From Bacteroidales bacterium (lineage in GTDB: Bacteria; Bacteroidota; Bacteroidia; Bacteroidales; Marinilabiliaceae), in contig JAKSLF010000001.1 in NCBI GenBank assembly GCA_024401355.1, positions 186,001-250,000 of the forward strand: DNA of 64,000 bases, read 5' to 3'. Positions 11,789-32,973 of this stretch are shown piece by piece. The notes under the pieces were generated by a model, which saw only the letters and a program-made list of their open reading frames with translations, was not told the DNA's origin and searched no databases. Position numbers and translations under genes: made by a program. Position 1 is the first letter of the stretch; every line of letters begins with the position of its first letter.

Positions 11789-12658
11789 CTATTGGGGCAG
11801 TATTATTTCAAAAGTTACTCCATAATTTGGTTCTGCCTTTTTCCGTAGTACGAGTCGTCCGCCCTGGCTCACTATTATCTGTCGGCTCAGCGACAATCCT
11901 ATGCCCGAACCTGTCGATTTTGTTGTGAAGAATGGCGTGAATATCTCTCCCGCATTGACCGAGCTTATCGGCTGCCCGTTGTTGCTTATGAGCAGGGTAG
12001 TGTGGTTGTCTTTCTCCTGATACCTGAGCCCTATTTTCGTCGCTCCTGCTTCGTGGGCGTTTTTCACTATGTTTGTTATCACATGGCGCATCAGGTTGGT
12101 GTCTGCGTTGATCATGGCTCCTTGGGGTGCATCGATGTCAAATGTTATGTCGCTATATACTGATGCTATTTCTTCGATTGTTTTCAGTATGTCAAAGATC
12201 GTCTTCTGCGGTTTTTGCAGTTGTGCCAGTTTCCTGTAGCTGTCGACAAAGCTGATGAGGTGGTCGCTTGTCGCTGCTATGGCTTTCAGTCCTTCGCCTG
12301 TCGAGGTGTTCTGCAGTTCCGGTCGTTTCATCAGCGACTGGCAGATGCTCGATATTGGCGTCACGTCGTTCATTATCTCGTGGGTCAGCACTCGGGTCAG
12401 TTTCTGCCACGACTCCACTTCGTTCTGGTCCACTTGCTTCTGTATCTCGTGCCCTAGGTCGTTCAGCAGTTTCTGCATGTCTCGCTCTCCTTGTAGCAGT
12501 CCGTTCGTCGGCATGTGAAACGAGAAGTCCTTGTTGCGCAATGCTTCACGCATCAGGTATGCCCGTGTGCTCAGTAGCTGCTGGTGAAATACGGTCCATC
12601 CGACGAATCCTGCAACTATCACGACTATTGCTATGACGAGGGCGGTTTCCATAGACAT
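11789..12658 (-). CDS. Sensor histidine kinase (NtrB-like), single membrane anchor
   Basis: A 289-residue kinase with one N-terminal transmembrane helix (~5-25) and almost no periplasmic part. A short linker is followed by the DHp H-box LTHEIMND (phosphorylated His93 predicted) and a HATPase_c domain with N-box NIVKNAHEAGA, F/G-boxes 'FTPFFTTKSTGSGIGLSLSRQI'. The sensory input is therefore probably intramembrane or cytoplasmic. It is the last gene of the export cluster and follows the response regulator with a 3-bp gap, making them an evident pair. It faces the ABCG gene tail to tail. Confidence 0.9.
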   Translation of the reverse strand: MSMETALVIAIVVIVAGFVGWTVFHQQLLSTRAYLMREALRNKDFSFHMPTNGLLQGERDMQKLLNDLGHEIQKQVDQNEVESWQKLTRVLTHEIMNDVTPISSICQSLMKRPELQNTSTGEGLKAIAATSDHLISFVDSYRKLAQLQKPQKTIFDILKTIEEIASVYSDITFDIDAPQGAMINADTNLMRHVITNIVKNAHEAGATKIGLRYQEKDNHTTLLISNNGQPISSVNAGEIFTPFFTTKSTGSGIGLSLSRQIIVSQGGRLVLRKKAEPNYGVTFEIILPQ

Positions 12659-12661
12659 TTC

Positions 12662-13183
12662 CTATTTCTTCAGTTTGTTATATAGTGTCTGTCTCGATAT
12701 GCCCAGCATCTCTGCTGCCTGGCTCAGGTTGCCGTGAGTCTTGTCCACAGCTTTTTGCAGGTGGTTGGCTTCCACTTCTTCCAGTGGAGCTACTTCATTG
12801 CTCTTGTCTATCGCGTCTTTTATCTTTCTCAGCAGTTCGTCATTGTCCCATGGCTTCACCACAAAGTCTGCCGCTCCGTTTTTCAGTCCCCTCACTGCCA
12901 GCTGCACGTCTGCGTATGCTGTCAGCAGTATGATCGGTATGTTCGGGTGTTTGCGCTTCAGCACCTGTAGCCAGAATATGCCGTCCTGACCCGTGTTGAG
13001 ACCCAGCGAGAAGTTCATGTCTAGCAGTATGGCCTCCACTTCCTCTTGGGCCAGTAGGGTCAGTATGTTGTCGGGTTGCTCGAGCGTGATTATCTTCTCG
13101 AATGTTCCTTCGAGGCAGAATTGCAGTGCGGTCAATATCGCTTTGTTGTCGTCTACTGCAAGGATGCTTTTATATTTTGCCAT
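12662..13183 (-). CDS. Response regulator, receiver plus Fis-type HTH (no AAA+ domain)
   Basis: A 173-residue regulator. Receiver domain at residues 1-120 with acidic pair DD (11-12), phospho-acceptor Asp55 (ILLDMNF), conserved Thr and Lys (LLTAYA, VVKPWD). Residues ~138-173 are a Fis-type helix-turn-helix (GNLSQAAEMLGISRQTLYNKLKK). The sigma-54-activating AAA+ module found between these in NtrC proteins is absent, as in the ActR/RegA class, so it should act on ordinary promoters. The start is the ATG of MAKYKSILAVDD; a longer frame begins upstream but runs through the promoter. A promoter embedded in a 12-bp palindrome lies directly upstream, suggesting autoregulation (inference). Confidence 0.9.
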   Translation of the reverse strand: MAKYKSILAVDDNKAILTALQFCLEGTFEKIITLEQPDNILTLLAQEEVEAILLDMNFSLGLNTGQDGIFWLQVLKRKHPNIPIILLTAYADVQLAVRGLKNGAADFVVKPWDNDELLRKIKDAIDKSNEVAPLEEVEANHLQKAVDKTHGNLSQAAEMLGISRQTLYNKLKK

Positions 13184-13208
13184 TGATAATAGTTTTTTTT
13201 CTTTGATA

Positions 13209-13250
13209 CAAATATAAGTTGTTTCAACGTAATTATCAAAACAACTTATA
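13209..13250 (-). promoter_or_regulatory. Response-regulator promoter embedded in a 12-bp inverted repeat
   Basis: TATAAGTTGTTT (13213-13224) and its exact complement AAACAACTTATA (13239-13250) are separated by 14 bp. On the minus strand TATATTTG (13209-13216) is a -7 box and TTG (13237-13239) sits 20 bp upstream of it, so one palindrome arm covers each promoter element. Confidence 0.65.
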
Positions 13251-13277
13251 TTCAATTAAACCTCTATTATCTCTCCT

Positions 13278-15648: not shown

Positions 15649-18045
15649 TTACTCTGTTTTTATGTTGTTGATAGGGTTCTCACTGGCTGCTCTGAACGAT
15701 TGCACTAGCACTGTGATCGTTATTACCAATGCTATCGACAATGTCGCCATCGCAAATGCTGCCCAGTTCATCTCTACTGCCATGCCCGACATCGACGCCA
15801 CCATAGGCGCTAGCCACATCGACAACGGTACACTCAATATCACTGCTACCGCAAACTGTATCATCACTATGCGCATCAGCATCACTATCACTTCCGGCGT
15901 GGTCGATCCTAACACTTTGCGCACTGCTATCTCACGCTTGCGGTTTGAGATAAAATAGCTGTTCATTGCTAGCAGACCAAGTATGCTGATGTTGAAGGAC
16001 AGCAAGGTAAATACTTTCAGTACGTCCAGGAATCGGCTGTATTCTCCATACCACCCTCGATGCATGTCACTCAGCAGTCTCGAGTTGAAGTTGTCATGTC
16101 CTGTCACTTCGCCTATTATCCTGCTCATCTTTTCGTTCAGCTTCGACTCTGTTGTCGCTTCTGGGTTATATTTCACTTCGAGGTAGCGTGGCAAGCCATA
16201 TATGTTCAATATCCTGTCCCCCTCCTCATATTCGTCTACTTTGTAGTATATTAGTGGCGATTTCGCATCTCCCGATATCACGCTCTGATACACTATGTCT
16301 GGGTATATCGCTCCAATCCTGTATGTCTTTTCATAGTCACCGCTATGCAATGTGAAGCTGCGTGCATCGTCTGGCAGATGCATCAGTTTGTACAGATACC
16401 TGTTGACGCATACCACTCCATTACCTGGGTCGTCTTTCTCAAATTCTTCACACGGATATATCTCAAGCATGTTAAACATGGCCGAGTCACCCATCAGTAT
16501 GCGTAGCGATACCACTGTCCCGTCTTCTGCATTCATCGTCTGGTTTTCTAGCCACGACATCGGTGTGCTGTAGCCCATGCCGACGCTTTCCACTTCGGGC
16601 AGCGACTTGATGCGGTCACGCACGGTCTTCATCTGTGTCAGCGACTCAAATTGCCCGCTCACTTCTGTTATGTTCTCATACTCATATCCTAGCGGCGTGT
16701 CCATCTTTTCATGCAGGCTGTCCGAGAATACCAGCACCGTCGTCAGCATCACCAGTGTGAATGTCGTCTGCAGCACCATCAGTACATGGCTCCATCGCTG
16801 ACGCACCGTCCTTCTAAAGGTGCCTCTCACGATGTCTATCGGATTATATTTGCTCAGCACTGTCGAAGGCACTATGCCTGCCAATACTCCTATCGCCACA
16901 ATTGCCACTATCGCACCGCCGATATTCCACCACGATATGTCTTTCATGATGTCTATCCTGTAGTTCACCAGTATCGACGCTTTGTCTTCTATTCCTATCG
17001 CCTCTATCAGTCCTACCGCAAAGGCCATACTTGCAAAGACTATGCTCTCTTTTATCAGGCGCCAGAATATCTCGATGCTTTGCGATCCTAGCAGTCGGCG
17101 TGTCGCCATCTCTTTCGAACGGTCACTCGTCAATGCCACACTTAGGTTTACATAGTTGAATATGGCAAATACTAGCGTCAGCAGTCCTATGGCTATGTAG
17201 AGCGCCGTTATCTCACGGCTGCCATGGTTCATGTCACTGCCGCTCAGACTCGCAAGGTTATTTTCATAGTATAGCCTGTTCAGCGGTGTCAGTATGACGT
17301 CTTGGGCTACTCCGTTTTTGTATAGCCAGAAGTATGTCCTGAAGTAGTCCGCCATGTCTTTCTCCCTAGCTTTCAGGTCACTTCCTTCTCGCTCCAGCAG
17401 ATATGTCATCGACGATCCAGCATTGCTCATGCCCTCGTTGTACGCCGACGAGTGGATGTACTTCAGGTTCTCTAGCGGTATCGCACATTCAAATTCACTC
17501 GGTATCGTCGCAAGGTCTAGGTCGTCCATGATGCCACTGATCGTGAACACATGTTTGTCACCAAAGACATCCAGCTCCAGCTGCTGGCCGATGACTTCCT
17601 CGTCGGCATAGTATTTGTCGACAAAGTTGCGCGACACAACGATGTTACCTATGTCGCTCAGCACTGTCGATTTGTCGCCTGTCTGCAGTCCGTAGTCGAA
17701 GAACGTGAAATAGTTCTCGCGCACCAGTAGTACATGGGTCTCTATCTCCATTCCGCCTTTTTTCAGCGTCATGCCATAGCCGTTTATCGCACACCAGTCT
17801 TCCACTTCCGGGAATTTTGCCGCCAGCTGCTCCCCCTCCCTGAAGTTCGACGTCTGGAAGTGCTCATTGCCTACCACGTAGATCCTCTCTCCACGGCTCT
17901 GGAAACTCTCCACCGACGTCTGGCGATAGACAAGGTCACCCAGCAACAGCAGATACGCTATCGACATCGAAAAGCCCGTGAAGGTTATCGCTGTGAACAA
18001 CTTGTGGCTGCTTAGGAATCTCAAGAATGTAACCATAATCGTCAA
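15649..18045 (-). CDS. MacB/FtsX-type ABC transporter permease
   Basis: A 798-residue paralogue of the following permease. First helix ~18-40, MacB_PCD periplasmic domain, FtsX helices (~280-400), second periplasmic region, and final helices (~680-790) preceded by 'NRKREIAVRKVLGSTTPE'. It ends with PINNIKTE, nearly the same tail as its neighbour, indicating an old tandem duplication. The two probably form a heterodimer served by the ATPase encoded upstream. Between this gene and the ATPase gene lies a 7-bp tandem array. Confidence 0.88.
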   Translation of the reverse strand: MTIMVTFLRFLSSHKLFTAITFTGFSMSIAYLLLLGDLVYRQTSVESFQSRGERIYVVGNEHFQTSNFREGEQLAAKFPEVEDWCAINGYGMTLKKGGMEIETHVLLVRENYFTFFDYGLQTGDKSTVLSDIGNIVVSRNFVDKYYADEEVIGQQLELDVFGDKHVFTISGIMDDLDLATIPSEFECAIPLENLKYIHSSAYNEGMSNAGSSMTYLLEREGSDLKAREKDMADYFRTYFWLYKNGVAQDVILTPLNRLYYENNLASLSGSDMNHGSREITALYIAIGLLTLVFAIFNYVNLSVALTSDRSKEMATRRLLGSQSIEIFWRLIKESIVFASMAFAVGLIEAIGIEDKASILVNYRIDIMKDISWWNIGGAIVAIVAIGVLAGIVPSTVLSKYNPIDIVRGTFRRTVRQRWSHVLMVLQTTFTLVMLTTVLVFSDSLHEKMDTPLGYEYENITEVSGQFESLTQMKTVRDRIKSLPEVESVGMGYSTPMSWLENQTMNAEDGTVVSLRILMGDSAMFNMLEIYPCEEFEKDDPGNGVVCVNRYLYKLMHLPDDARSFTLHSGDYEKTYRIGAIYPDIVYQSVISGDAKSPLIYYKVDEYEEGDRILNIYGLPRYLEVKYNPEATTESKLNEKMSRIIGEVTGHDNFNSRLLSDMHRGWYGEYSRFLDVLKVFTLLSFNISILGLLAMNSYFISNRKREIAVRKVLGSTTPEVIVMLMRIVMIQFAVAVILSVPLSMWLAPMVASMSGMAVEMNWAAFAMATLSIALVITITVLVQSFRAASENPINNIKTE

Positions 18046-18053
18046 TTATTAAT

Positions 18054-18109
18054 TCTCCATTATCCATTCTCCATTATCCATTCTCCATTGTCCATTATCC
18101 ATTGTCCAT
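18054..18109. repeat. Tandem array, eight units of 7 bp (TNTCCAT)
   Basis: Units in order: TCTCCAT, TATCCAT, TCTCCAT, TATCCAT, TCTCCAT, TGTCCAT, TATCCAT, TGTCCAT, without gaps, filling the ATPase-permease junction. The 21155-21210 array has the same unit length, the same copy number and a related unit. Confidence 0.85.
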
Positions 18110-18114
18110 TGAAT

Positions 18115-18792
18115 TTAGCACAACGCTAAATTCTCTACTACCTCACCGTCCAGCAGGTTAATGGTCCTGTGGGCGTATGTAGCGTCTCTCTGCGAGTGGG
18201 TCACCATGATGATGGTCGTTCCCTCCTGGTTTAGCTGCGTCAGCAGCTCCATCACTTCCTGCCCGTTCTTCGAGTCGAGGTTACCTGTCGGCTCGTCCGC
18301 CAATATCAGCTTTGGTCTGCTCACCAGTGCTCGCGCTATTGCCACCCTCTGCTGCTGACCACCCGACAACTGCTGCGGAAAGTGCTTCGCCCTGTGCGAA
18401 ATGCTCATCTTTCTCAACATCTCCTCTACGCGCACTTCACGCTCGCTTGCTGGCACTTTCAGATATTTCAGCGGCAACTCCACATTCTCCTCTACGTTCA
18501 GCTCGTCTATCAGATTGAAGCTCTGGAACACAAAGCCTATGTTGCCCTTACGCACCGATGTTCGCTCGCTCTCTTTCAGGTTGCCCACTTCCATGCCGTC
18601 TATCGTGTAGCTGCCTTCTGTCGGATTGTCCAGCAGTCCTAGTATGTTCAGCAAGGTCGACTTGCCACAGCCCGACGGACCCATGATGGCTACAAACTCA
18701 CCATCGTTCACCTCTATGCTCACGTTGTTCAGAGCTACTGTCTCCACCTCTTCTGTGCGGAACACTTTCTTTATGTTTTCAATCTTTATCAT
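18115..18792 (-). CDS. ABC transporter ATP-binding protein (MacB/LolD class)
   Basis: A 225-residue ATPase: Walker A GPSGCGKST (~35-43), Q-loop FVFQSFNL, signature LSGGQQQR (~140-147), Walker B LILADEPTGNLDS and H-loop MVTHSQ. This set, with the 'EPTGNLDS' tail, defines the MacB/LolD/FtsE class that drives FtsX-type permeases. The start is the ATG of MIKIENIKKVF; the upstream in-frame ATG at 18831 would lie at or before the predicted transcription start. It powers the two permeases downstream. Confidence 0.9.
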   Translation of the reverse strand: MIKIENIKKVFRTEEVETVALNNVSIEVNDGEFVAIMGPSGCGKSTLLNILGLLDNPTEGSYTIDGMEVGNLKESERTSVRKGNIGFVFQSFNLIDELNVEENVELPLKYLKVPASEREVRVEEMLRKMSISHRAKHFPQQLSGGQQQRVAIARALVSRPKLILADEPTGNLDSKNGQEVMELLTQLNQEGTTIIMVTHSQRDATYAHRTINLLDGEVVENLALC

Positions 18793-18833
18793 AGTCTTAT
18801 TTTTTTGTTTTTCTCTTTTTTTGTTTGACAATC

Positions 18834-18864
18834 CAAAATTATCTCTTCAACATTTTTTTTCCAA
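18834..18864 (-). promoter_or_regulatory. Promoter of the ATPase-permease part of the export cluster
   Basis: Minus-strand TTG (18862-18864), about 20-bp spacer, TAATTTTG (18834-18841). The 60-bp repeat starts immediately upstream at 18867. Confidence 0.6.
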
Positions 18865-18866
18865 TA

Positions 18867-18926
18867 CTTTTATAGGTCCCAACATCGCTTTGTCCAACAT
18901 TTTTACACCACATTGTCCATTTTTTT
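18867..18926. repeat. 60-bp direct repeat, copy A (upstream element)
   Basis: Sixty bases identical to 22559-22618. It contains spaced copies of a GTCC(C)AAC-like word. It starts 25 bp upstream of the -7 box of the ATPase promoter; copy B starts 26 bp upstream of the -7 box of the tolC-like promoter. The equal placement suggests an activator-binding region. Confidence 0.85.
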
Positions 18927-19013
18927 GACACATGTAATAAATAATGGAGATATTACTTTTCGTAACATCTCCATTTTTATGCTCCTTGAATTGAAACTTA
19001 TCTCAAAAAGACA

Positions 19014-19079
19014 TTAGAATTTAATGTTGTATGTCACAGAAGGCACCCATTGATATACCCAGTTAATAATAGAATTAAT
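19014..19079 (-). pseudogene. Relic of a TonB-dependent receptor C-terminus
   Basis: On the minus strand, out of frame with the preceding gene, the bases encode INSIINWVYQWVPSVTYNIKF and a stop. This resembles the last beta-strand and terminal aromatic of Bacteroidota TonB receptors (the receptor at 28648 ends YLYRWMPSISYCFNL). An in-frame stop lies 18 bp further upstream, so only the tail survives. Confidence 0.4.
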
Positions 19080-19737
19080 TTCTTGACAACAATTCTTCTA
19101 TCTCTATGATACTGATATGAGGTATTGCGCTTTTCGGTTTTTCTGACGATTTTTTTAATGCTGTCGCAATATGGGCAATTACTTCTGTTATGTTCACTTC
19201 TGTGTTCGTGACAAAGCCTTCATTAACCTGTCTGTTGATGTTTTTGTTTATCTCGCGTTTTTGAGCGTCGTCACTATCCAAAATTCCTATGCCACTTCTT
19301 GAAAGTGCAGTCTGTGTCGCCAATTTGACGTTTGAGCTCGCTATTTCATTGTTAATGTCTATTGATATTGGAAGTGTCCTCGACATTACTGATAAATTGA
19401 GCTGGCGTGACTTCACCGTTACTTCTGACAACATAATCGTATCGGGCGACATGAAAACACCGAACAACGTTTGATAATCCAACGTGTCATTCACTGTCAA
19501 TTCTGCTTTCTGATAGCCTATGTGCGAAAACTCAATTGTTTGTCCTACTTCGCATCTTACATTCACTCGCCCCACTTCATCTGCCAGATATACATCCTTT
19601 GATACTGAGACTTTTGCGTATGGCAGAGGGTTCAGACTGACCTTGTCAACTATAATGCCGACCAAAACCCGTTCTTGAGATAAGGACAATATGCAACATA
19701 AGTGCATCGCTATAAATAACAGAATTCTTGTCGTCAT
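19075..19737 (-). CDS. Exported carboxypeptidase-regulatory-like domain protein (possible truncated receptor)
   Basis: A 220-residue protein with a signal peptide (~1-20) and a CarboxypepD_reg-like beta domain at ~22-110 (VGIIVDKVSLNPLPYAKVSV ... FSHIGYQKAEL ... LSEVTVKSR). This is the domain that opens most Bacteroidota TonB receptors. The remaining ~110 residues are helical and unassigned. No plug or barrel follows, but a TonB-receptor tail relic lies directly downstream in another frame. It could thus be a decayed receptor that kept its N-terminus, or an independent small protein. It sits between the adaptor and ATPase genes of the exporter. Confidence 0.6.
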   Translation of the reverse strand: MTTRILLFIAMHLCCILSLSQERVLVGIIVDKVSLNPLPYAKVSVSKDVYLADEVGRVNVRCEVGQTIEFSHIGYQKAELTVNDTLDYQTLFGVFMSPDTIMLSEVTVKSRQLNLSVMSRTLPISIDINNEIASSNVKLATQTALSRSGIGILDSDDAQKREINKNINRQVNEGFVTNTEVNITEVIAHIATALKKSSEKPKSAIPHISIIEIEELLSRN

Positions 19738-19802
19738 ATCTTTGCATTTTGATTTTTTCTGTAAGTTCTGTTTCTTGAAGTCTTAATTTAAGATTTGACA
19801 TT

Positions 19803-19847
19803 GAGCACATCCGACAGTTTTTCCAGGACAATCGATGTGCTCTTTTT
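19803..19847 (+). terminator. Hairpin with T-run between adaptor and regulatory-domain genes
   Basis: GAGCACAT (19803-19810) pairs with ATGTGCTC (19835-19842), followed by TTTTT on the plus strand. The neighbouring genes are on the minus strand, where the hairpin lacks a U-run, so its role there is uncertain. Confidence 0.35.
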
Positions 19848-19904
19848 GTGCGAAATTAAGGTCTTTATTTTAATTTTACAAGAATTTTGTCATAAAAACA
19901 TGTC

Positions 19905-21155
19905 TTATTTCATCACCAGCACCTCATTCTCCTTGAACGCCTCATAGCCGCTCGTGATGACTCTTTCGCCTGGTGTCAGTCCTTCCGTCACTTCATAGTA
20001 TTGCGGATTCTGTCTTCCTATCTTTATCTCTCTCCTATACGCTCGCTTCCCATCTCCATCCATCACAAAGATCCAGTTCCCACCTGTCGTCTGGAAGAAC
20101 GCACCTCGTGGTATCAACACGGCCTCCTCCGGCTGACCTAGCTCCAGGTTGATGTAGTATGTCTGACCACTGCGTATGTTCTCCGGCTTCTCTGACACAA
20201 ATACAAAGTCCGTCCTGAATTTGCCGTTCCTCACTTCCGGATACACTTTCCTCACCTGCATCTCGTATGTTACTTCGCCTCTCACAAACGATGCACTCAG
20301 ACCCTGACGCACTCTGTCTATGTAATGCTCGTCTATGTTCGCCTCCACTTTATAGCTGCTCAAGTCGTTTATCTGGCCTATCTTCTGACCTGGAGTGATG
20401 CTCTGACCCAATACCACATCCAGCAAGCCCAGCTCACCGTCTATCGTACTCCTCACCTCCAGCTTGTTCTTTCTGTCTCTCACTAGCAACACGTTCTTCC
20501 TCATGTTCGCCAGGTTCTCCTCCATCTGGTCCATCTGCACCGACCTGTAGATGCTGTCCTGCTCCAGTCTCCTCCCTATCAGACCATGCTTCTTCATCGC
20601 CAGCTCATAGTCCTCTTTGCTCTGCAGATATACCTCCTTGCTGATCAGCTTCTCCTCATACAGCCTCTCATTCTGCTTGTATGTCCTCTGCTTCCTCTGC
20701 GTGTCTATGTCTAGGCTCACTTTCTCCGTCTCGTTGTTCAGCTTGTCCTGCTGCATCGCCACCTGCGTGTTGCGCAGCAGATTCTGCTTCTCGGCCAGCT
20801 CCGCTTCCGCATTCAATATCTGCAAGTCAAGGTTGCTGTTGCTCAGTCTCACTATCACGTCTCCCTTCTTCACCGTCGCTCCCTCTTCTACTACCTTCTC
20901 CATCACTATTCCTCCCTCCTCTGGCGATATCTGTACCACCTGTATCGGCACTACCTGACCATTCACTCTCACGTAGTCTTTAAACTCATTCCGAGTCACC
21001 GTGCTTATGGTTAGCGCATTCTCTTCCACCTGCATCGTAGCCGCATGATTGCCAAACAACATCCAACCAACGAAAGCCACCAAAACACCACCACATACAA
21101 TATAAGGTATATGCTTCCTCCGCAAACCCTTCTTCTTCTCAATCTGTATATCCAT
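19905..21155 (-). CDS. Efflux periplasmic adaptor (HlyD/MacA-type membrane fusion protein)
   Basis: A 416-residue adaptor. A short cytoplasmic tail and one membrane helix (~18-38) lead to barrel-sandwich hybrid halves ('IVMEKVVEEGATVKKGDVIVRL' ... 'IDGELGLLDVVLGQSITPGQKIG'), a long alpha-helical coiled-coil hairpin between them (~100-215), a beta-barrel and a membrane-proximal domain ending 'GLTPGERVITSGYEAFKENE'. It should bridge the FtsX permeases to the TolC-like protein. I start it at the ATG of MDIQIEKKK. The coding start abuts the 21155-21210 7-bp array. Confidence 0.9.
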   Translation of the reverse strand: MDIQIEKKKGLRRKHIPYIVCGGVLVAFVGWMLFGNHAATMQVEENALTISTVTRNEFKDYVRVNGQVVPIQVVQISPEEGGIVMEKVVEEGATVKKGDVIVRLSNSNLDLQILNAEAELAEKQNLLRNTQVAMQQDKLNNETEKVSLDIDTQRKQRTYKQNERLYEEKLISKEVYLQSKEDYELAMKKHGLIGRRLEQDSIYRSVQMDQMEENLANMRKNVLLVRDRKNKLEVRSTIDGELGLLDVVLGQSITPGQKIGQINDLSSYKVEANIDEHYIDRVRQGLSASFVRGEVTYEMQVRKVYPEVRNGKFRTDFVFVSEKPENIRSGQTYYINLELGQPEEAVLIPRGAFFQTTGGNWIFVMDGDGKRAYRREIKIGRQNPQYYEVTEGLTPGERVITSGYEAFKENEVLVMK

Positions 21156-21210
21156 ATCAATTATCAATTATCAATTATCAATTATCAATTCTCAATTATC
21201 AATTCTCAAT
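21155..21210. repeat. Tandem array, eight units of 7 bp (TATCAAT/TCTCAAT)
   Basis: Units in order: TATCAAT five times, then TCTCAAT, TATCAAT, TCTCAAT, no gaps. It spans the whole junction from the stop codon of the tolC-like gene to the start codon of the adaptor gene. Confidence 0.85.
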
Positions 21211-22477
21211 TGTACATCCTCCAAACCCTGTTCTTCACCGCCAGCATCAGCCTGCTCTGCAGATGTGTCGCTCTGCTCTGCAGCAGTACCGCCGCCGACT
21301 GCTGCACTTCTATTGGCGACGCCAGACCCTCCTCATACTGCCTCCTCACCATCTCATACGCTATGCTGTCTGCCGCCACCTTCTTCTCCATCTGCACCGC
21401 CTGTCTCTCATATCCCTCAGCATCAGCCTCCGCCTGCATTCTCAGCTGGTTCAGCTCCACCTGCTTCGCCTCATATCTCTCCCTCGCTATCTTATAGTTG
21501 TTCTTCGCCTTCTTTACATTCGCCACATTCGACAGCCTGCTGAATATCGGTATGTTCAGCGACGCACCCACATACTCTCCCTTGTTGTCTTTCAATTGCC
21601 TGCCCAGCGATGGAGCACTCTCACCCATCGTCCTGTAATATGAAGTGTTTATCCCAGCATTCACCGACAGCTGAGGCATGAATTCCGCTTTCGCCGCCGC
21701 ATAGCTCCGGCGCGACGCCTCCATCTCATGATATGCCTCTTCTAGCTCACTGTTGCTCCCCGTCGCCTCGTCTTTCTCTCTCGTCCCGACTTCCACTATC
21801 TCGTCCTCTATCTCTAGCTCACCCTCATAGTTCATCTCGCTCTTCAGCCTTATCATCGCTACCCTTAGCATGTTCTCCTGTCTCACCATCTCACACTCGT
21901 CACCTGCCAGCTGAGCCTCCATCTGCGCCACGTCGGCCATGCTCTTCTGACCTATCTCCTCCATCAGCCTCGTCCTCTTCATCATCATCTCACTCTCCTC
22001 GCGCTTCGCCTTCGTCATCTCCACCGTCCCTTTGTAATATAGCACGTCCACATAACTCTGAAACACCGCCAGCTCAGTCTTCTTCTTCTCTGTCTCCAGC
22101 GCATTCTTCCCCATCAGTATGCTCGCCTTCTCCGCCTGCAGCATGTGCACGCGCCTCAAACCGTCAAATATCGGCAGCGACGCATATAGCTCCTCTCCAT
22201 TGTTAAACGTGTTCACATTCGTATATGTGTTCGTCTCCGGGTCTATCGCACGGCCAAAGTTATACTGCGCTCCCACGTTTATGCCCACACTTGGCATGAA
22301 CGATCCTAACACCGCCAACTTGTCTGCCTTGTGGTTATCCAGCATCAATTCGCGCTGGCGCACTCCGTGATTATGCTCCACAGCATAACGCATGCACTCC
22401 TCTACGCTCATCCTCGTCTGACCACTCACCGCTATCACCGATGCTACTGCTGTCAATATTACTATTACTCTTTTCAT
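21206..22477 (-). CDS. TolC-like outer membrane efflux protein
   Basis: A 423-residue outer-membrane factor of the TolC/OprM family. It has a signal peptide (MKRVIVILTAVASVIAVSG), the conserved opening 'MSVEECMRYAVEHNHGVRQREL', and two long coiled-coil helical repeats with the usual 'VQ.LQ' and 'A..Y.A..EFMPQLSVNAG' halves. The frame continues 27 codons upstream, but that part covers the promoter; the ATG at 22477 begins the signal peptide. First gene of the export cluster, with a promoter and large repeat arrays upstream. The stop codon lies in the 7-bp array before the adaptor gene. Confidence 0.9.
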   Translation of the reverse strand: MKRVIVILTAVASVIAVSGQTRMSVEECMRYAVEHNHGVRQRELMLDNHKADKLAVLGSFMPSVGINVGAQYNFGRAIDPETNTYTNVNTFNNGEELYASLPIFDGLRRVHMLQAEKASILMGKNALETEKKKTELAVFQSYVDVLYYKGTVEMTKAKREESEMMMKRTRLMEEIGQKSMADVAQMEAQLAGDECEMVRQENMLRVAMIRLKSEMNYEGELEIEDEIVEVGTREKDEATGSNSELEEAYHEMEASRRSYAAAKAEFMPQLSVNAGINTSYYRTMGESAPSLGRQLKDNKGEYVGASLNIPIFSRLSNVANVKKAKNNYKIARERYEAKQVELNQLRMQAEADAEGYERQAVQMEKKVAADSIAYEMVRRQYEEGLASPIEVQQSAAVLLQSRATHLQSRLMLAVKNRVWRMYN

Positions 22478-22524
22478 CTCATTCCATTTTTTTCTCGCCG
22501 GTCGCATCATCGCTTCCGACATCG

Positions 22525-22532
22525 CAAATCTA
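22525..22532 (-). promoter_or_regulatory. Promoter -7 box of the export cluster
   Basis: TAGATTTG on the minus strand, 47 bp before the tolC-like start. At the -33 position there is only TGTGT rather than TTTG, which would fit dependence on an activator bound at the 60-bp element just upstream. Confidence 0.5.
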
Positions 22533-22558
22533 TCACCTCCTTTCCGATTATACACCAT

Positions 22559-22618
22559 CTTTTATAGGTCCCAACATCGCTTTGTCCAACATTTTTACAC
22601 CACATTGTCCATTTTTTT
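22559..22618. repeat. 60-bp direct repeat, copy B (upstream element)
   Basis: Identical to 18867-18926. It contains TGTCCAAC at 22583-22590 and TGTCCAT at 22606-22612. Recombination between the two copies would remove the tolC-like, adaptor and regulatory-domain genes (3692 bp). Confidence 0.85.
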
Positions 22619-22692
22619 TACACCTTCTTTGGCCAGTTCTTTTTCGCCATCTCTGTCATCGTATATGAACGCACTCGCTGATGGGCATACTT

Positions 22693-22832
22693 TATCGAAC
22701 CTTCACCATCAAAATGTCGAACATTCGCCGTTACTTTATCGAACCTTCACCTTCAAAATGTCGAACATTCGCCATTACTTTATCGAACCTTCACCATTAA
22801 AATGTCGAACATTCGCCGTTACTTTATCGAAC
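22693..22832. repeat. Seven sites phased at exactly 22 bp (3.5 copies of a 44-bp unit)
   Basis: TATCGAAC at 22693, 22737, 22781 and 22825 alternates with TGTCGAAC at 22715, 22759 and 22803, every step 22 bp. The TGTCGAAC sites are centred in the palindrome AATGTCGAACATT. The array lies in the divergent intergenic region between the tolC-like gene and the first DUF4249 gene. Confidence 0.9.
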
Positions 22833-22901
22833 CTTCGACCTTACCTTATTATTAAGGTGTCTATCCCCTTTAGAATTATTTTGCGAATTTTCTGTACTTT
22901 T

Positions 22902-22932
22902 TTTGCAGATAAATGATTTGTTATTAACTTTG
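22902..22932 (+). promoter_or_regulatory. Consensus promoter of the DUF4249 block (copy 1 of a duplicated ~60-bp segment)
   Basis: TTTG (22902-22905), 19-bp spacer, TAACTTTG (22925-22932). The surrounding segment 22883-22941 recurs at 24857-24916 with one substitution and one extra T. Confidence 0.8.
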
Positions 22933-22992
22933 TCATCGGAATAAATGTCAACCCATACAACCTATTGTCGTTTACATCAAATTCCCAATTCA

Positions 22993-23883
22993 ATGAAATA
23001 CCTTGTTTATTCGATATTGACAGTTACACTCCTCATCCTCTCCAGTTGCGTTGAAGAGTTTGATATTATGGTTGACAATCGGTATGAAATGATTGTCATT
23101 GATGCCATGGTGACAGACCTAGATACCGTTCAGACTGTATATATATGTCGCGAACGTGAAAAACTCGATTATGACATAAAATATCCACCAATAGAAGGTG
23201 TTTCTATCCATATTGAGGATGACAATGGATGGAACGGCGAATTTAAGGATATAAGTGAAGATAGAGGACGAAATCGTGGACGTATATTCGCTATTAAGGG
23301 ACATCAGTTCGAGCCAGGCCGAACTTACACTATTACCGTTCTTGTTGGTGACCGTGAGTTCAAAGCCACTGAAACTATGATTCCTCTGCCTGATATCAGA
23401 GGTCTTAAGTTCTATTCTAAAGAAACCAAAGATAATGATGGATGTAGATATCAGCCGATAATATATTTTAAGGATAATCAACCTAATGTCGACAATTACT
23501 ATCTGTTTTCTCGACGGTTTGATGTTATCAGGAGTGAAGAAGCAACTCGTTATGCTCCTTTGCAAAGGCTCAGCGATGTCGGTTTCCGAGATAATCTTGA
23601 TGGCATTGCTTTGTCTGTAGGTTATGGAGCTGAACCGCAATTTACTTTTGATTTGCAGATGGATTCATACTATTATTTTACGTTTATGACCATCAGTAAA
23701 TCCAATTACAATTATTATGGTGTGATGGAAGATAATATTAACAACGATGGTGGCATCTATAAACCTACGCCGACATCGCCTGTGACTAACTTCATCGGCG
23801 AAAATGTTCAGGGTCAGTTCATAGCCGCTTCACGGTTGAATATACATGGGCAAGTTACTCTTGATAATATCATTGACAGATGA
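22993..23883 (+). CDS. DUF4249-family lipoprotein (paralogue 1)
   Basis: A 296-residue lipoprotein with a lipobox near the N-terminus (LLILSSC, Cys at ~19), followed by the DUF4249 hallmark 'VEEFDI', 'VIDAMVTDLDTVQTVYICRERE' and a mainly beta fold. I start at MKYLVYSILTV; the frame opens 16 codons earlier without a signal sequence. The family is known from Bacteroidota next to TonB-receptor genes and has no established function; surface-exposed lipoprotein is likely. It overlaps the next gene by 4 bp. Confidence 0.82.
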   Translation: MKYLVYSILTVTLLILSSCVEEFDIMVDNRYEMIVIDAMVTDLDTVQTVYICREREKLDYDIKYPPIEGVSIHIEDDNGWNGEFKDISEDRGRNRGRIFAIKGHQFEPGRTYTITVLVGDREFKATETMIPLPDIRGLKFYSKETKDNDGCRYQPIIYFKDNQPNVDNYYLFSRRFDVIRSEEATRYAPLQRLSDVGFRDNLDGIALSVGYGAEPQFTFDLQMDSYYYFTFMTISKSNYNYYGVMEDNINNDGGIYKPTPTSPVTNFIGENVQGQFIAASRLNIHGQVTLDNIIDR

Positions 23884-24779
23884 AAACATATAGCAATATA
23901 ATTATCGCCGCATGCCTCATCTTCCTCTCCAGTTGCGTCGAAGAGTTCGACATTAAGGTTGACGGTCAGCCAGAACTAATCGTAATCGATGCCGTGGTTA
24001 CCGATATAGACTCTGTTCAGACTGTCTATATCCGTCGTGATCGTGAGGTGCTTTTGCAGTCTCATGTCTTTAATAAATACCCACCAATTAAAGATGTTAC
24101 CGTGCATATCGAAGATGATAATGGATGGAGTGGCGATTTTGAAGATGTGAGTGAAAATTGGGAAGAAATAGATGAAGGACGTGTGTTTCAGCTTGAGGGT
24201 CATCAGTTCGAGCCAGGCCGAACTTACACAATCACCGTACATGTCGGCGACCGTGTGTTCAAGGCTACTGAAACTATGATCCCTCTGCCTGATATCAAAG
24301 GTCTTAGGTTTTATTCTAAGAACACAAAAGATGATGGGTCTAGGTATCAACCGATGATCTATTTCACGGATAATCAACCTGATGTCGAAAACTATTATCT
24401 GTTTTCTCGACGGTTTGACGTTATTAGATGTGAATCAGAAAGTCGTTATATCCCTTTACAGCGACTCAGCGATGTAGGCTTTCGTGGCGATCTTGATGGT
24501 ATAGCTTTGTCTGTAGGTTACGGCGCTGAGGAGTATTTTACTTATGATTTAGAGTTGGAGTCTTGCTATTATTTCGATTTTATGACCATCAGTAAATCCA
24601 ATTACAATTATTATGGTGTGATGGAAGATAATATTAACAACGATGGCGGCGTCTATAAGCCTTCACCAACTTCACCTCTGACCAATTTTAGTGGTGATAA
24701 TGTACAAGGCCAGTTTATCGCCGCCTCGCGTATTGGTTTGCAAGGAAAGGTTACATTGGATAATATCATTGATAGATGA
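23880..24779 (+). CDS. DUF4249-family lipoprotein (paralogue 2)
   Basis: A 299-residue lipoprotein (lipobox LIFLSSC), very similar to paralogues 1 and 3 from 'VEEFDIKVDGQPELIVIDAVVTD' to the end 'VTLDNIIDR'. Its first codons (MKTYS) match the start of the DsbA-like gene, not of the other paralogues: the junction after paralogue 1 and that after paralogue 3 are nearly identical in DNA, a trace of segmental duplication. Function unknown, as for the family. Confidence 0.82.
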   Translation: MKTYSNIIIAACLIFLSSCVEEFDIKVDGQPELIVIDAVVTDIDSVQTVYIRRDREVLLQSHVFNKYPPIKDVTVHIEDDNGWSGDFEDVSENWEEIDEGRVFQLEGHQFEPGRTYTITVHVGDRVFKATETMIPLPDIKGLRFYSKNTKDDGSRYQPMIYFTDNQPDVENYYLFSRRFDVIRCESESRYIPLQRLSDVGFRGDLDGIALSVGYGAEEYFTYDLELESCYYFDFMTISKSNYNYYGVMEDNINNDGGVYKPSPTSPLTNFSGDNVQGQFIAASRIGLQGKVTLDNIIDR

Positions 24780-24876
24780 AAACTAACCAATTCTTCCTGT
24801 TTGGGCTGATAAATACACATGTTGTCGCAACTCTATTTGCTACTCTAGAAATATTGGCGAATTTTCTGTCCTTTTT

Positions 24877-24907
24877 TTTGCAGATAAATGATTTGTTATT
24901 AACTTTG
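24877..24907 (+). promoter_or_regulatory. Consensus promoter, copy 2 of the duplicated segment
   Basis: TTTG (24877-24880), 19-bp spacer, TAACTTTG (24900-24907), inside the second copy (24857-24916) of the ~60-bp segment. It would drive the lipoprotein gene at 25000. Confidence 0.8.
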
Positions 24908-24999
24908 TCATCGGAAAACGAATGAATACAAACAACCTATCGTCTAATTCATGAACTTTTCCCAATCTACAAGCAAAAGTATTAACTTAACATAAACCT

Positions 25000-25965
25000 A
25001 TGGAAAAATTAATTTACACACACGCACTTGCTGCGTGTAGTCTCGCCTTGGCGAGTGTCATGCTCTCTTGCTCAAGTGAAGCTGACGAACTGAATGTCGT
25101 TTCCTCAGAACCAGAAGAAATGACCGAAGAAATGCTGGAAAAGATAGCCTACGGCTGCGACAGCTACCTCTATGAAAATCCGACTGACCAAAAAGTCGAA
25201 ACATCTGCTTCAGATGAGTATCTTGCTTTCCTGAGGGCAAGATGTTCTCGAGCCAACAAGTCGATTGTGGCTGCTGACGATAATATGATAGGAGTAATAA
25301 AGAGCGATAAAATATATGGATGTGGAAAGTATAAAGAAGTAGAAGTTTATTATGATTGTGAGGATTCTGGTAATAATAATAAATCCAAAGGCTACCATGG
25401 GTCATGGTCAGTTTCGCATAATCTCACAATGAGATTTTGTATTGTCCCGGCTAATCTTTTTGAACAGGTTGATGTGGCTTATGGCGTTGTCGATTTTTCT
25501 TCAGCGCCTTATCTTTGTGGTGATTCTAACTATGAAGATATAGTTCGTGTTGATGTGCGTATGGATTCCGATGATAGTCATAATCCTCAAACTTGTATTA
25601 TGTCTAAAGAATATGGCGCTAGTTGGGTAAATGGAAATGTTGGATCGGTGCAAGTTTACGGCAATAAAAATCTTCAATTTAGATTATTCATCTTCAAGCC
25701 TAAGTCTGGTAAACAAAAGAAATTTCCAAGACTGGGGTTTGAATATGGCGTTTTGGGAAATGTATATTCACATTCGAAAGATGACTATGATAAAGATGAA
25801 TATGGTTATGTATATTCAGATGATGAAGATAGTAATAACGCGAATGGTCTTTGGGTTTATGACAAAGATTCTGGTCGATATGATACCTATGTATATAATA
25901 AAAATGTCTATGGTGTGATTCATCAAGATAAAAATACCAGATTCTATCTATCAAAGGTTAAATAA
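25000..25965 (+). CDS. Hypothetical lipoprotein
   Basis: A 321-residue protein with signal peptide and lipobox (ASVMLSC, Cys at ~24). It is acidic and rich in Tyr, Asp and Ser; the C-terminal ~60 residues are a run of YDKDEYGYVY-like segments. No family recognised. The DNA is notably more AT-rich than in the ribosomal region. It is encoded between two DUF4249 paralogues behind a duplicated promoter and is probably a surface component of the same system, the least conserved one. Confidence 0.7.
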   Translation: MEKLIYTHALAACSLALASVMLSCSSEADELNVVSSEPEEMTEEMLEKIAYGCDSYLYENPTDQKVETSASDEYLAFLRARCSRANKSIVAADDNMIGVIKSDKIYGCGKYKEVEVYYDCEDSGNNNKSKGYHGSWSVSHNLTMRFCIVPANLFEQVDVAYGVVDFSSAPYLCGDSNYEDIVRVDVRMDSDDSHNPQTCIMSKEYGASWVNGNVGSVQVYGNKNLQFRLFIFKPKSGKQKKFPRLGFEYGVLGNVYSHSKDDYDKDEYGYVYSDDEDSNNANGLWVYDKDSGRYDTYVYNKNVYGVIHQDKNTRFYLSKVK

Positions 25966-32157: not shown

Positions 32158-32973
32158 ATGTCAAGAACTAATTTTGACCAGTTATTGGAAGCCGGAGTTC
32201 ACTTCGGTCACTTGAAGCGTAAGTGGAACCCTGCCATGAAGCCATATATCTTCATGGAGAAGAACGGCATCCATATCATTGACCTCTATAAGACAGTAGC
32301 CAAGATCGACGAGGCAGCTGACGCTCTTAAGCAAATCGCAAAGTCGGGTCGCAAGATCCTCTTCGTTGCAACTAAGAAGCAGGCTCGTGACATCATCGCT
32401 GAAAAGGTCGGTGGCGTTAATATGCCTTATGTCGTTGAACGTTGGCCGGGTGGTATGTTGACCAACTTCCCTACTATCCGTAAGGCTGTCAAGAAGATGG
32501 GTTCTTTGGACAAGCTCATGAGCGATCCAGCTTATAATAGCCTTTCAAAGCGTGAGCGTCTCCAGATTACTCGCCAGCGCGAGAAGCTCAACAAGACTCT
32601 CGGCTCTATTGCTGACCTGACACGTCTTCCATCAGCAATGTTCGTCTTCGACGTAACTAAGGAGCATATCGCTGTTAAAGAGGCTAACCGCCTCAACATC
32701 CCTGTATTCGGTGTGGTTGATACCAACTCTGATCCATCGAATATCGACTACGTTATTCCAGCAAACGACGATGCATCTAAGTCTATCGAGATCATCACTG
32801 ACGTAATGACTCAGGCTATCAAGGAAGGTCTCGAGGAGCGCAAGGTTGAAAAGCTCGACGAGGTTGAGGCTAAGGACAAGAAGCCTGCCGCACCTAAGGG
32901 CAAGAAGACTAGCGCACGCAAGGGCGAAGAGTCAGAATCTGAGGAGGCTGCTACAGCTGAATCAGCAGAATAA
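32158..32973 (+). CDS. rpsB: 30S ribosomal protein S2
   Basis: A 271-residue S2 with 'LLEAGVHFGHLKRKWNPAMKPYIF', 'RWPGGMLTNFPTI' and 'NIPVFGVVDTNSDP'. The last ~45 residues form a Lys/Ala/Glu-rich extension, longer than in E. coli S2 and typical of Bacteroidota. It binds the head-body junction of the small subunit. A terminator-like hairpin separates it from tsf. Confidence 0.97.
   Translation: MSRTNFDQLLEAGVHFGHLKRKWNPAMKPYIFMEKNGIHIIDLYKTVAKIDEAADALKQIAKSGRKILFVATKKQARDIIAEKVGGVNMPYVVERWPGGMLTNFPTIRKAVKKMGSLDKLMSDPAYNSLSKRERLQITRQREKLNKTLGSIADLTRLPSAMFVFDVTKEHIAVKEANRLNIPVFGVVDTNSDPSNIDYVIPANDDASKSIEIITDVMTQAIKEGLEERKVEKLDEVEAKDKKPAAPKGKKTSARKGEESESEEAATAESAE

Follow-up and report, generated by a model that had tools for sequence, protein, structure and literature searches.

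Between the genes of an efflux pump and a group of DUF4249 and TonB-dependent receptor genes, a Bacteroidales genome carries seven TRTCGAAC sites in strict succession. What is this array, and does a protein read it? In the first-pass annotation, it was taken for a set of operators to which the response regulator of the pump cluster would bind cooperatively on one face of the helix. We analyzed the array in the window, by which we mean the whole stretch of 64,000 nucleotides, in the rest of its assembly and in related genomes.

The array and its surroundings

The features of the locus are collected in Table 1. The left side of the array is occupied by genes for OEP/TolC, HlyD, an ABC ATPase, two FtsX/MacB permeases, a histidine kinase and a response regulator with a Fis-type HTH, and the right side by DUF4249 genes followed by a TonB-dependent receptor, so the gene neighborhood was described correctly at the outset. 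The positions and exact 22-bp steps of the seven sites were also confirmed, with TATCGAAC and TGTCGAAC alternating in a 44-bp super-repeat. Tandem Repeats Finder reported a 44-bp unit in 3.4 copies with 95% matches (22688-22836) and a 22-bp unit reaching 22849. The word AATGTCGAACATT, which had been called a palindrome at every second site, is present but imperfect, its arms AATGT and ACATT standing around CGA. In the window as a whole, TRTCGAAC occurs 17 times, compared with 4.36 expected and a count of 17 in none of 100 shuffles, and seven of these copies make up the array. The promoter-side region of the DUF4249 gene is duplicated ahead of a gene at 25000, and the array is missing from this duplicate.

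Table 1. Features of the locus, in positions of the window unless marked as contig positions.
Feature	Position	Strand	Remarks
Array, heads every 22 bp (two 11-bp units), 44-bp super-repeat	22688..22849	+	Tandem Repeats Finder; register per family matrix
Head type TATCGAACCTTC	22693..22704; more starts 22737, 22781, 22825	+	TATCGAAC at all four starts; contig 208693, 208737, 208781, 208825
Head type TGTCGAACATTC	22715..22726; more starts 22759, 22803	+	TGTCGAAC at all three starts; contig 208715, 208759, 208803
TolC-like outer membrane efflux ORF	21206..22558	-	start probably nearer 22478, by eye
DUF4249 ORF, downstream of array	22945..23883	+	
Promoter-side region of DUF4249 gene	22880..22983	+	duplicated at 24854-24958 as 81-92% identical pieces
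65-bp element upstream of TolC-like gene	22559..22623	-	two TGTC-N9-TACA dyads (22583-22599, 22606-22622), 23 bp apart
Second 65-bp element upstream of ABC ATPase gene	18867..18931	-	dyads 18891-18907, 18914-18930
Response regulator	12662..13255	-	receiver domain + Fis-type HTH_8; no AAA domain matched
Histidine kinase adjoining response regulator	11789..12658	-	

A coding function of the array was rejected, as the ORF that crosses it (22605-22916) showed no Pfam match and an 11-bp period cannot hold a reading frame. A structured RNA was likewise rejected, the sole Rfam match at E up to 1 in 17900-25100 being located inside the TolC-like gene and scoring 19.1 bits, below the gathering score of 38. 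Other repeats were observed in the window. The adjoining DUF4249 genes (23029-24630) are tandem duplicates with 77-83% DNA identity over long stretches; two arrays with a 7-bp period occupy gene junctions of the pump cluster, at 18052-18110 (ATTATCC/ATTCTCC) and 21155-21211 (TATCAAT/TCTCAAT); and a 24-bp tandem repeat of 2.5 copies lies within an ORF at 32870-32930.

Dispersal of the head words

The assembly to which the window belongs (G000) comprises 2.92 Mb in 69 contigs, and the contig of the window is 280 kb long. We found 38 exact copies of TRTCGAACMTTC in this assembly and none of the reversed pattern, and 60 other genomes contained 0-6 copies each. According to gene calls from our own codon-usage script, on which the spacer typing and the head-free scan described below also depend, 14 of the 38 copies are coding, one of them at a gene end, and 24 are noncoding, at 14 loci including the window. 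The coding copies plausibly reflect codon usage (ATC GAA CCT TC, by eye). The 22-bp step was found again at two other loci, L035 (five heads) and L031 (two heads). A second head, GAAACACGTACTYTC, occurs with at most one mismatch in 31 copies in G000 and 12 in G005, while 13 other genomes of the genus have 0-2; its reversed control gave 0-2 per genome. Copies of both heads adjoin nudC-, mnmA-, pyrC-, purD-, metG- and glmS-like genes (names read from translations), and the genes beside the TRTCGAACMTTC loci are mostly unrelated to efflux. An array specific to the efflux cluster was thus rejected, since its words are dispersed over the genome. The first-pass annotation had itself held that the same array scattered at unrelated loci would speak against operators, and the head copies beside unrelated genes largely present that picture.

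The 36 noncoding GAAACACG sites of G000 and G005 lie in divergent spacers in 20 cases, in tandem spacers in the same sense in 10 and in the opposite sense in 5, with one untyped and none convergent; by length, the sampled G000 spacers are 69% tandem, 28% divergent and 3% convergent. Three of the five opposite-sense tandem sites stand by genes of the protein family described below. This lean towards the downstream gene could hint at regulation. A covariance model, R1, was built from sequences chosen by the query word, and its conserved head columns are therefore circular; its column T29, one 22-bp step further on, lies outside the query.

An 11-bp register downstream of the heads

When the flanks were printed in blocks of 11, the heads were followed on one side by units in register, about four 11-bp units in all. 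In particular, at 39 noncoding GAAACACGTACTYTC loci the downstream identity at lag 11 was 0.396, compared with 0.281 +- 0.009 after shuffling (z 12.9), and lags 22 and 33 were also raised (z 7.6 and 4.3), with no such lag peak upstream of the 39 heads. The unit reads roughly WWTA(C/A)(C/G)C(T/A)ACC. For a register matrix, we took three tail units from each of 33 loci, excluding the six of the 39 with TCGAAC in the tail. The matrix placed the window array in register with 3.11 bits, as opposed to scores of -0.9 to -7.7 for the other ten registers; none of 1993 random window segments and none of 2000 shuffles equalled it. The 22-bp step of the array is two 11-bp units, and the words of the array recur throughout the genome.

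The spacing between neighboring heads followed the same quantum. In G000, 16 close head pairs were found, each separated by a multiple of 11 bp; six of them are the window's own, and only the 12 pairs of the same type are free of the offset between head types that had been preset from the alignment. Including the 25 pairs of a second subclade with another head, 41 of 41 close pairs are multiples of 11 bp apart, although some are recent tandem copies and not independent. The strict helical phasing noticed in the array is thus real and more general than first seen, which keeps cooperative protein binding attractive, whereas the attached claim of pump control found no support.

A second subclade with another head

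The word AAAYTGCGAGYAA emerged from the DNA that precedes family genes in G007, G009 and G013. It was counted 153 times in G009, 112 in G013, 73 in G010, 62 in G007, three in G003 and once in G011, and it was absent from the nine other genomes of the genus, the reversed control being 0 in all 15. We fetched 99 distinct AAAYTGCGAGYAA heads, drawn from part of the places where the word occurs, and some stretches were picked partly for listed neighboring heads, though not by spacing. All 25 same-strand pairs less than 400 bp apart are separated by multiples of 11, namely 44, 55 (15 times), 66, 77 (3), 88 (4) and 121 bp. Downstream of the 75 heads that are not followed by a further head, lag-11 identity was 0.396 compared with 0.272 (z 17.5); upstream, lags 11 and 22 were slightly raised (0.299 and 0.301; other lags 0.26-0.30). 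At 65 noncoding heads, conservation was 7.1 bits in unit 1 and had dropped to 1.3 by unit 5; the heads have 3.8 units on average, which gives a module of about 55 bp, the commonest spacing.

As read from these alignments, a module in either subclade consists of a head word and about four 11-bp units in exact register, some 55 bp or five helical turns. Dispersed modules, their polarity, the 11-bp quantum and a promoter location in two species are established at the level of sequence. The 69 second-subclade arrays were distributed over -H- (18), -H+ (16), +H- (11) and +H+ (11) spacers, with 7 coding and 6 untyped, and those in tandem spacers displayed no strand preference (11 in the same sense, 18 in the opposite). 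As the arrays occur in all spacer types and in both senses, we read the solo modules as having no common transcriptional role.

A genus-restricted family of basic proteins

Heads are also embedded in the promoters of a multicopy family of strongly basic proteins that was seen only in this genus. The proteins have about 160-190 residues. Of the 71 GTDB-family genomes searched by profile, 10 encode them, and all 10 belong to this genus (G005 12 genes, G000 11, G013 10, G007 9, G009 8, G002 4, G010 3, G003 2, G008 and G011 1 each); the other five genomes of the genus had no family gene at E 1e-5. The matches in G007, G009, G010 and G013 were weaker (best 2.7e-10) and mostly covered the C-terminal half of the domain. 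In the first group, which leaves out these four genomes, 18 domains had a pI of 10.0-11.8 and a net charge of +12 to +21. Eighteen members gave no Pfam match below E 0.02, searches of NCBIfam and PHROG at E 1 with two members yielded no family, and PDB matches were found only at E 0.2 and above. Three other origins or roles of the family were considered and rejected: phage or plasmid, as no relative was detected in viral contigs or, for the one member searched, in plasmids; defence, for which 1 of 18 members gave a marginal PADLOC match (E 0.0098); and mobile element, as no module was seen by eye 3' of six inspected gene copies.

The placement of the heads in these promoters was compared with the consensus of -33 TTTG and -7 TAnnTTTG given in an earlier study (PMC7366714). 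Four TCGAAC heads, at L033, L054, L058 and L059, belong to promoters of genes that resemble one another; by eye, TTG stands on one side of the head and a TAnnTTTG-like box on the other. In genes of this A type, the TCGAAC head stands by the core promoter and the tail occupies the leader between the -7 box and the ATG. In most B-type genes, a GAAACACG head is reversed near the -33 region and its tail runs away from the gene; one B-type copy, G000:C24, has the head forward. The second head, GAAACACGTACTYTC, stands just upstream of family genes in 6 of its 12 copies in G005 and 3 of its 31 in G000. With head patterns loosened to admit variants, the 300 bp upstream contained a head for 8 of the 11 G000 family genes (of the three others, one was unparsed), for 11 of 12 in G005 and for only 4 of the 15 examined in the second subclade (2 of the 15 unparsed), where the other family genes share different words upstream. 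Three family-gene leaders of G002 and G003 gave lag-11 matches of 10/22, 12/22 and 8/22, the third not distinct from other lags, and the word ATGTCGTATGTTTG of these two genomes is little above background elsewhere.

Across the 15 genomes of the genus, at least 10 heads were present in 6 of the 7 with at least three family genes and in 0 of the 8 others (Fisher 0.0014, Spearman 0.74), figures that ignore the kinship of the genomes and are partly circular because the head words were found in family-carrying genomes. The exception, G002, has four family genes and none of these heads. A head-free scan of spacers, covering 80-180 kb per genome and having little power for sparse arrays, revealed an excess of lag-11 windows in G013 (6, compared with 0-3 at other lags), a weak one in G009 (6, compared with 0-4), and none in G000 (10, compared with 2-11), G005 (2, compared with 0-5), G001, G002, G003, G004 or G012.

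Several side observations were made in these spacers. Upstream of family genes, CGGACA/GGGACA recurs by eye at ~10-bp steps, a period unlike that of the modules, before the promoter at L266, L270, L271 and L273, and a promoter word near GGTAACGGTTTGGCACA is common to G013, G007 and G009 (L258, L264, L278, by eye). At L162, the 5' flank of a family gene has a further, distinct tandem repeat (CTCCGATAACTTTCAACTTTT...) ahead of the head. The G002 spacers showed a strong excess at lags 7, 14 and 21 (17, 16 and 12 windows).

A separate candidate for the pump operator

The related element that had been noticed beside the array, then put at 60 bp, is real; it is 65 nt long and present in two copies of 98% identity, upstream of both pump units (Table 1). 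It includes TGTCCAAC, which resembles TGTCGAAC. Within the window, TGTC-N9-KACR dyad pairs were found only in these two elements, and the array has no such dyad on either strand; in sampled stretches totaling 1,036,829 bases, the background was 2 pairs. Of 20 channel-gene relatives, 6 have upstream pairs with a spacing of 21 or 23 bp (in G001, G012, G047, G007, G009 and the Prevotellaceae MAG locus L091) and 14 do not, and three loci entered the alignment of the element. The nearest relative of the channel gene within the genus is 47% identical. Upstream of related channel genes, where the first-pass annotation proposed to look for the array, none of the window's kind was seen at L091 or L094, checked in upstream DNA, or at L093, checked by Tandem Repeats Finder. 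The 65-bp element, separate from the array, thus appears to be the better candidate for a pump operator, and its dyad pair would fit the Fis-type response regulator of the cluster as reader.

Interpretation of the array

The reading that we prefer, with about even confidence, is that the array represents a locally amplified member of a genus-specific set of dispersed modules that would be read by a protein, most simply the basic family, with one subunit per helical turn. A DNA-binding protein, most simply a family member, would nucleate at the head, and the assembly would grow along one face of the DNA, by one subunit with each 11-bp turn. At the family promoters, where the heads lie at or beside the -33 and -7 boxes, this would lead to repression; elsewhere, the modules may serve as chromosomal binding or titration sites with no dedicated target gene. 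We infer protein binding, the identity of the binder, the single subunit per turn and the autorepression. Weighing against this reading are G002, with its family genes and none of these heads, the few second-subclade family genes that have a head nearby, the partial circularity of the co-occurrence, and the head-free scan, in which G000 and G005 showed no excess. In the window, the heads would have been amplified every two turns, an amplification that looks recent given 44-bp units 95% alike, and the dense site is therefore probably an accident of location and not a pump switch. A wider version is more speculative and, in our estimate, unlikely: an expanding set of small basic proteins restricted to the genus would polymerize from a directional start by exactly one subunit with each 11-bp turn, regulate their own genes and mark tens to more than 100 intergenic sites, with heads that differ by subclade. 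If this were true, sites and proteins would coevolve like a private chromosome-organizing code, a new class of bacterial DNA-protein system.

The main rival is a neutral family of dispersed repeats, whose short modules would have spread by copying or gene conversion and lengthened in whole 11-bp units with no function, the promoter copies being the origin and the window array a local satellite. We regard it as a serious possibility that nevertheless falls short of an even chance. The solo modules beside unrelated genes favor it and tell against the protein reading, and the occurrence of the 69 second-subclade arrays in every spacer type and both senses also favors it. Copying is also suggested by the units themselves, as neighboring units within a locus are somewhat more alike than units of different loci (0.419 and 0.340), identical 11-bp units recur in 101 pairs compared with 0.44 expected, and the same local likeness is seen in the 44-bp units of the window. 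However, the units vary in sequence between and within loci and yet keep the exact 11-bp phase, and slippage alone would not explain one phase across different heads and species. The fixed places of the heads in family-gene promoters of two species also count against a neutral origin.

An improbable alternative is that the modules work at the RNA level, as sites of leader or terminator type for an RNA-binding protein, 11 bp being also a turn of A-form helix. The tails between the -7 box and the ATG of the A-type genes are consistent with it, and the array RNA folds better than its shuffles (z -3.0, with 1 of 200 as good), but most B-type modules point away from the gene upstream of the promoter, and the tandem spacers of the second subclade display no strand preference. 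Finally, an operator array for the response regulator of the efflux cluster, which the exact phasing, the position between the two operons and the likeness of TGTCCAAC to TGTCGAAC would favor, is highly improbable in view of the dispersed heads, the dyad-free array, the related channel genes with no array upstream and the promoter duplicate that lacks it.

If a protein reads the phase, the modules would be a natural ruler for helical-phase cooperativity and would bring forward an unexamined gene family; if no protein reads it, a repeat family copied with perfect 11-bp phase needs an explanation of its own. In both cases, annotating arrays of this kind as operon-specific operators should be avoided.

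Comparison with known systems

Dispersed bacterial repeats are usually recognized by a palindrome, and the invariant here is a distance, multiples of 11 bp. No such repeat family was recognized in the open-access literature, to which our search was confined. Plasmid iterons are tandem sites about two turns apart; unlike them, the array has no replication initiator beside it and lies on a 280-kb contig, with copies on many contigs. It also differs from a satellite or VNTR confined to one locus in that its register is common to many loci, though its 44-bp units are locally 95% alike.

Heptamer arrays such as TAACTGA in Beggiatoaceae, Cyanobacteria and some Bacteroidetes, proposed to be translational sites by start codons (PMC4679880), are similar in being intergenic direct repeats dispersed next to genes with no common function; they differ, as described there, in their 7-bp period and single word. 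Genome-wide dinucleotide periodicity of ~11 bp likewise involves multiples of ~11 bp, and is a modulation of ~2% in the E. coli genome (PMC7537859); in contrast, lag-11 identity at the defined modules described here is about 0.40, compared with about 0.28, and the tested pairs are exact.

The closest genomic analogue is REPIN-RAYT. According to a study of REP/REPIN elements and RAYT genes (PMC3116915), short dispersed extragenic repeats are linked there to a gene family that has the repeat beside its members, and a gene family bearing the repeat alongside was also found here. The defining features that we tested fail: REPINs are inverted hairpin doublets, while these modules are direct, polar and quantized at 11 bp, with AAAYTGCGAGYAA not a palindrome by eye, and RAYTs are transposases, while no transposase family was among the Pfam matches of 18 members of the basic family even at E 1. 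The closest mechanical analogue is parC of plasmid R1, of which ParR needs at least two direct 11-bp repeats and along which it assembles (PMC9426499). A ribbon-helix-helix fold was sought in the basic family and gave no Pfam match in 18 members and no significant PDB match. The units described here are likewise direct, in-phase 11-bp repeats; unlike the one plasmid centromere of that account, a single site beside parM/parR, they form tens to more than 100 chromosomal modules on many contigs, and the neighbors of the array are pump and DUF4249 genes.
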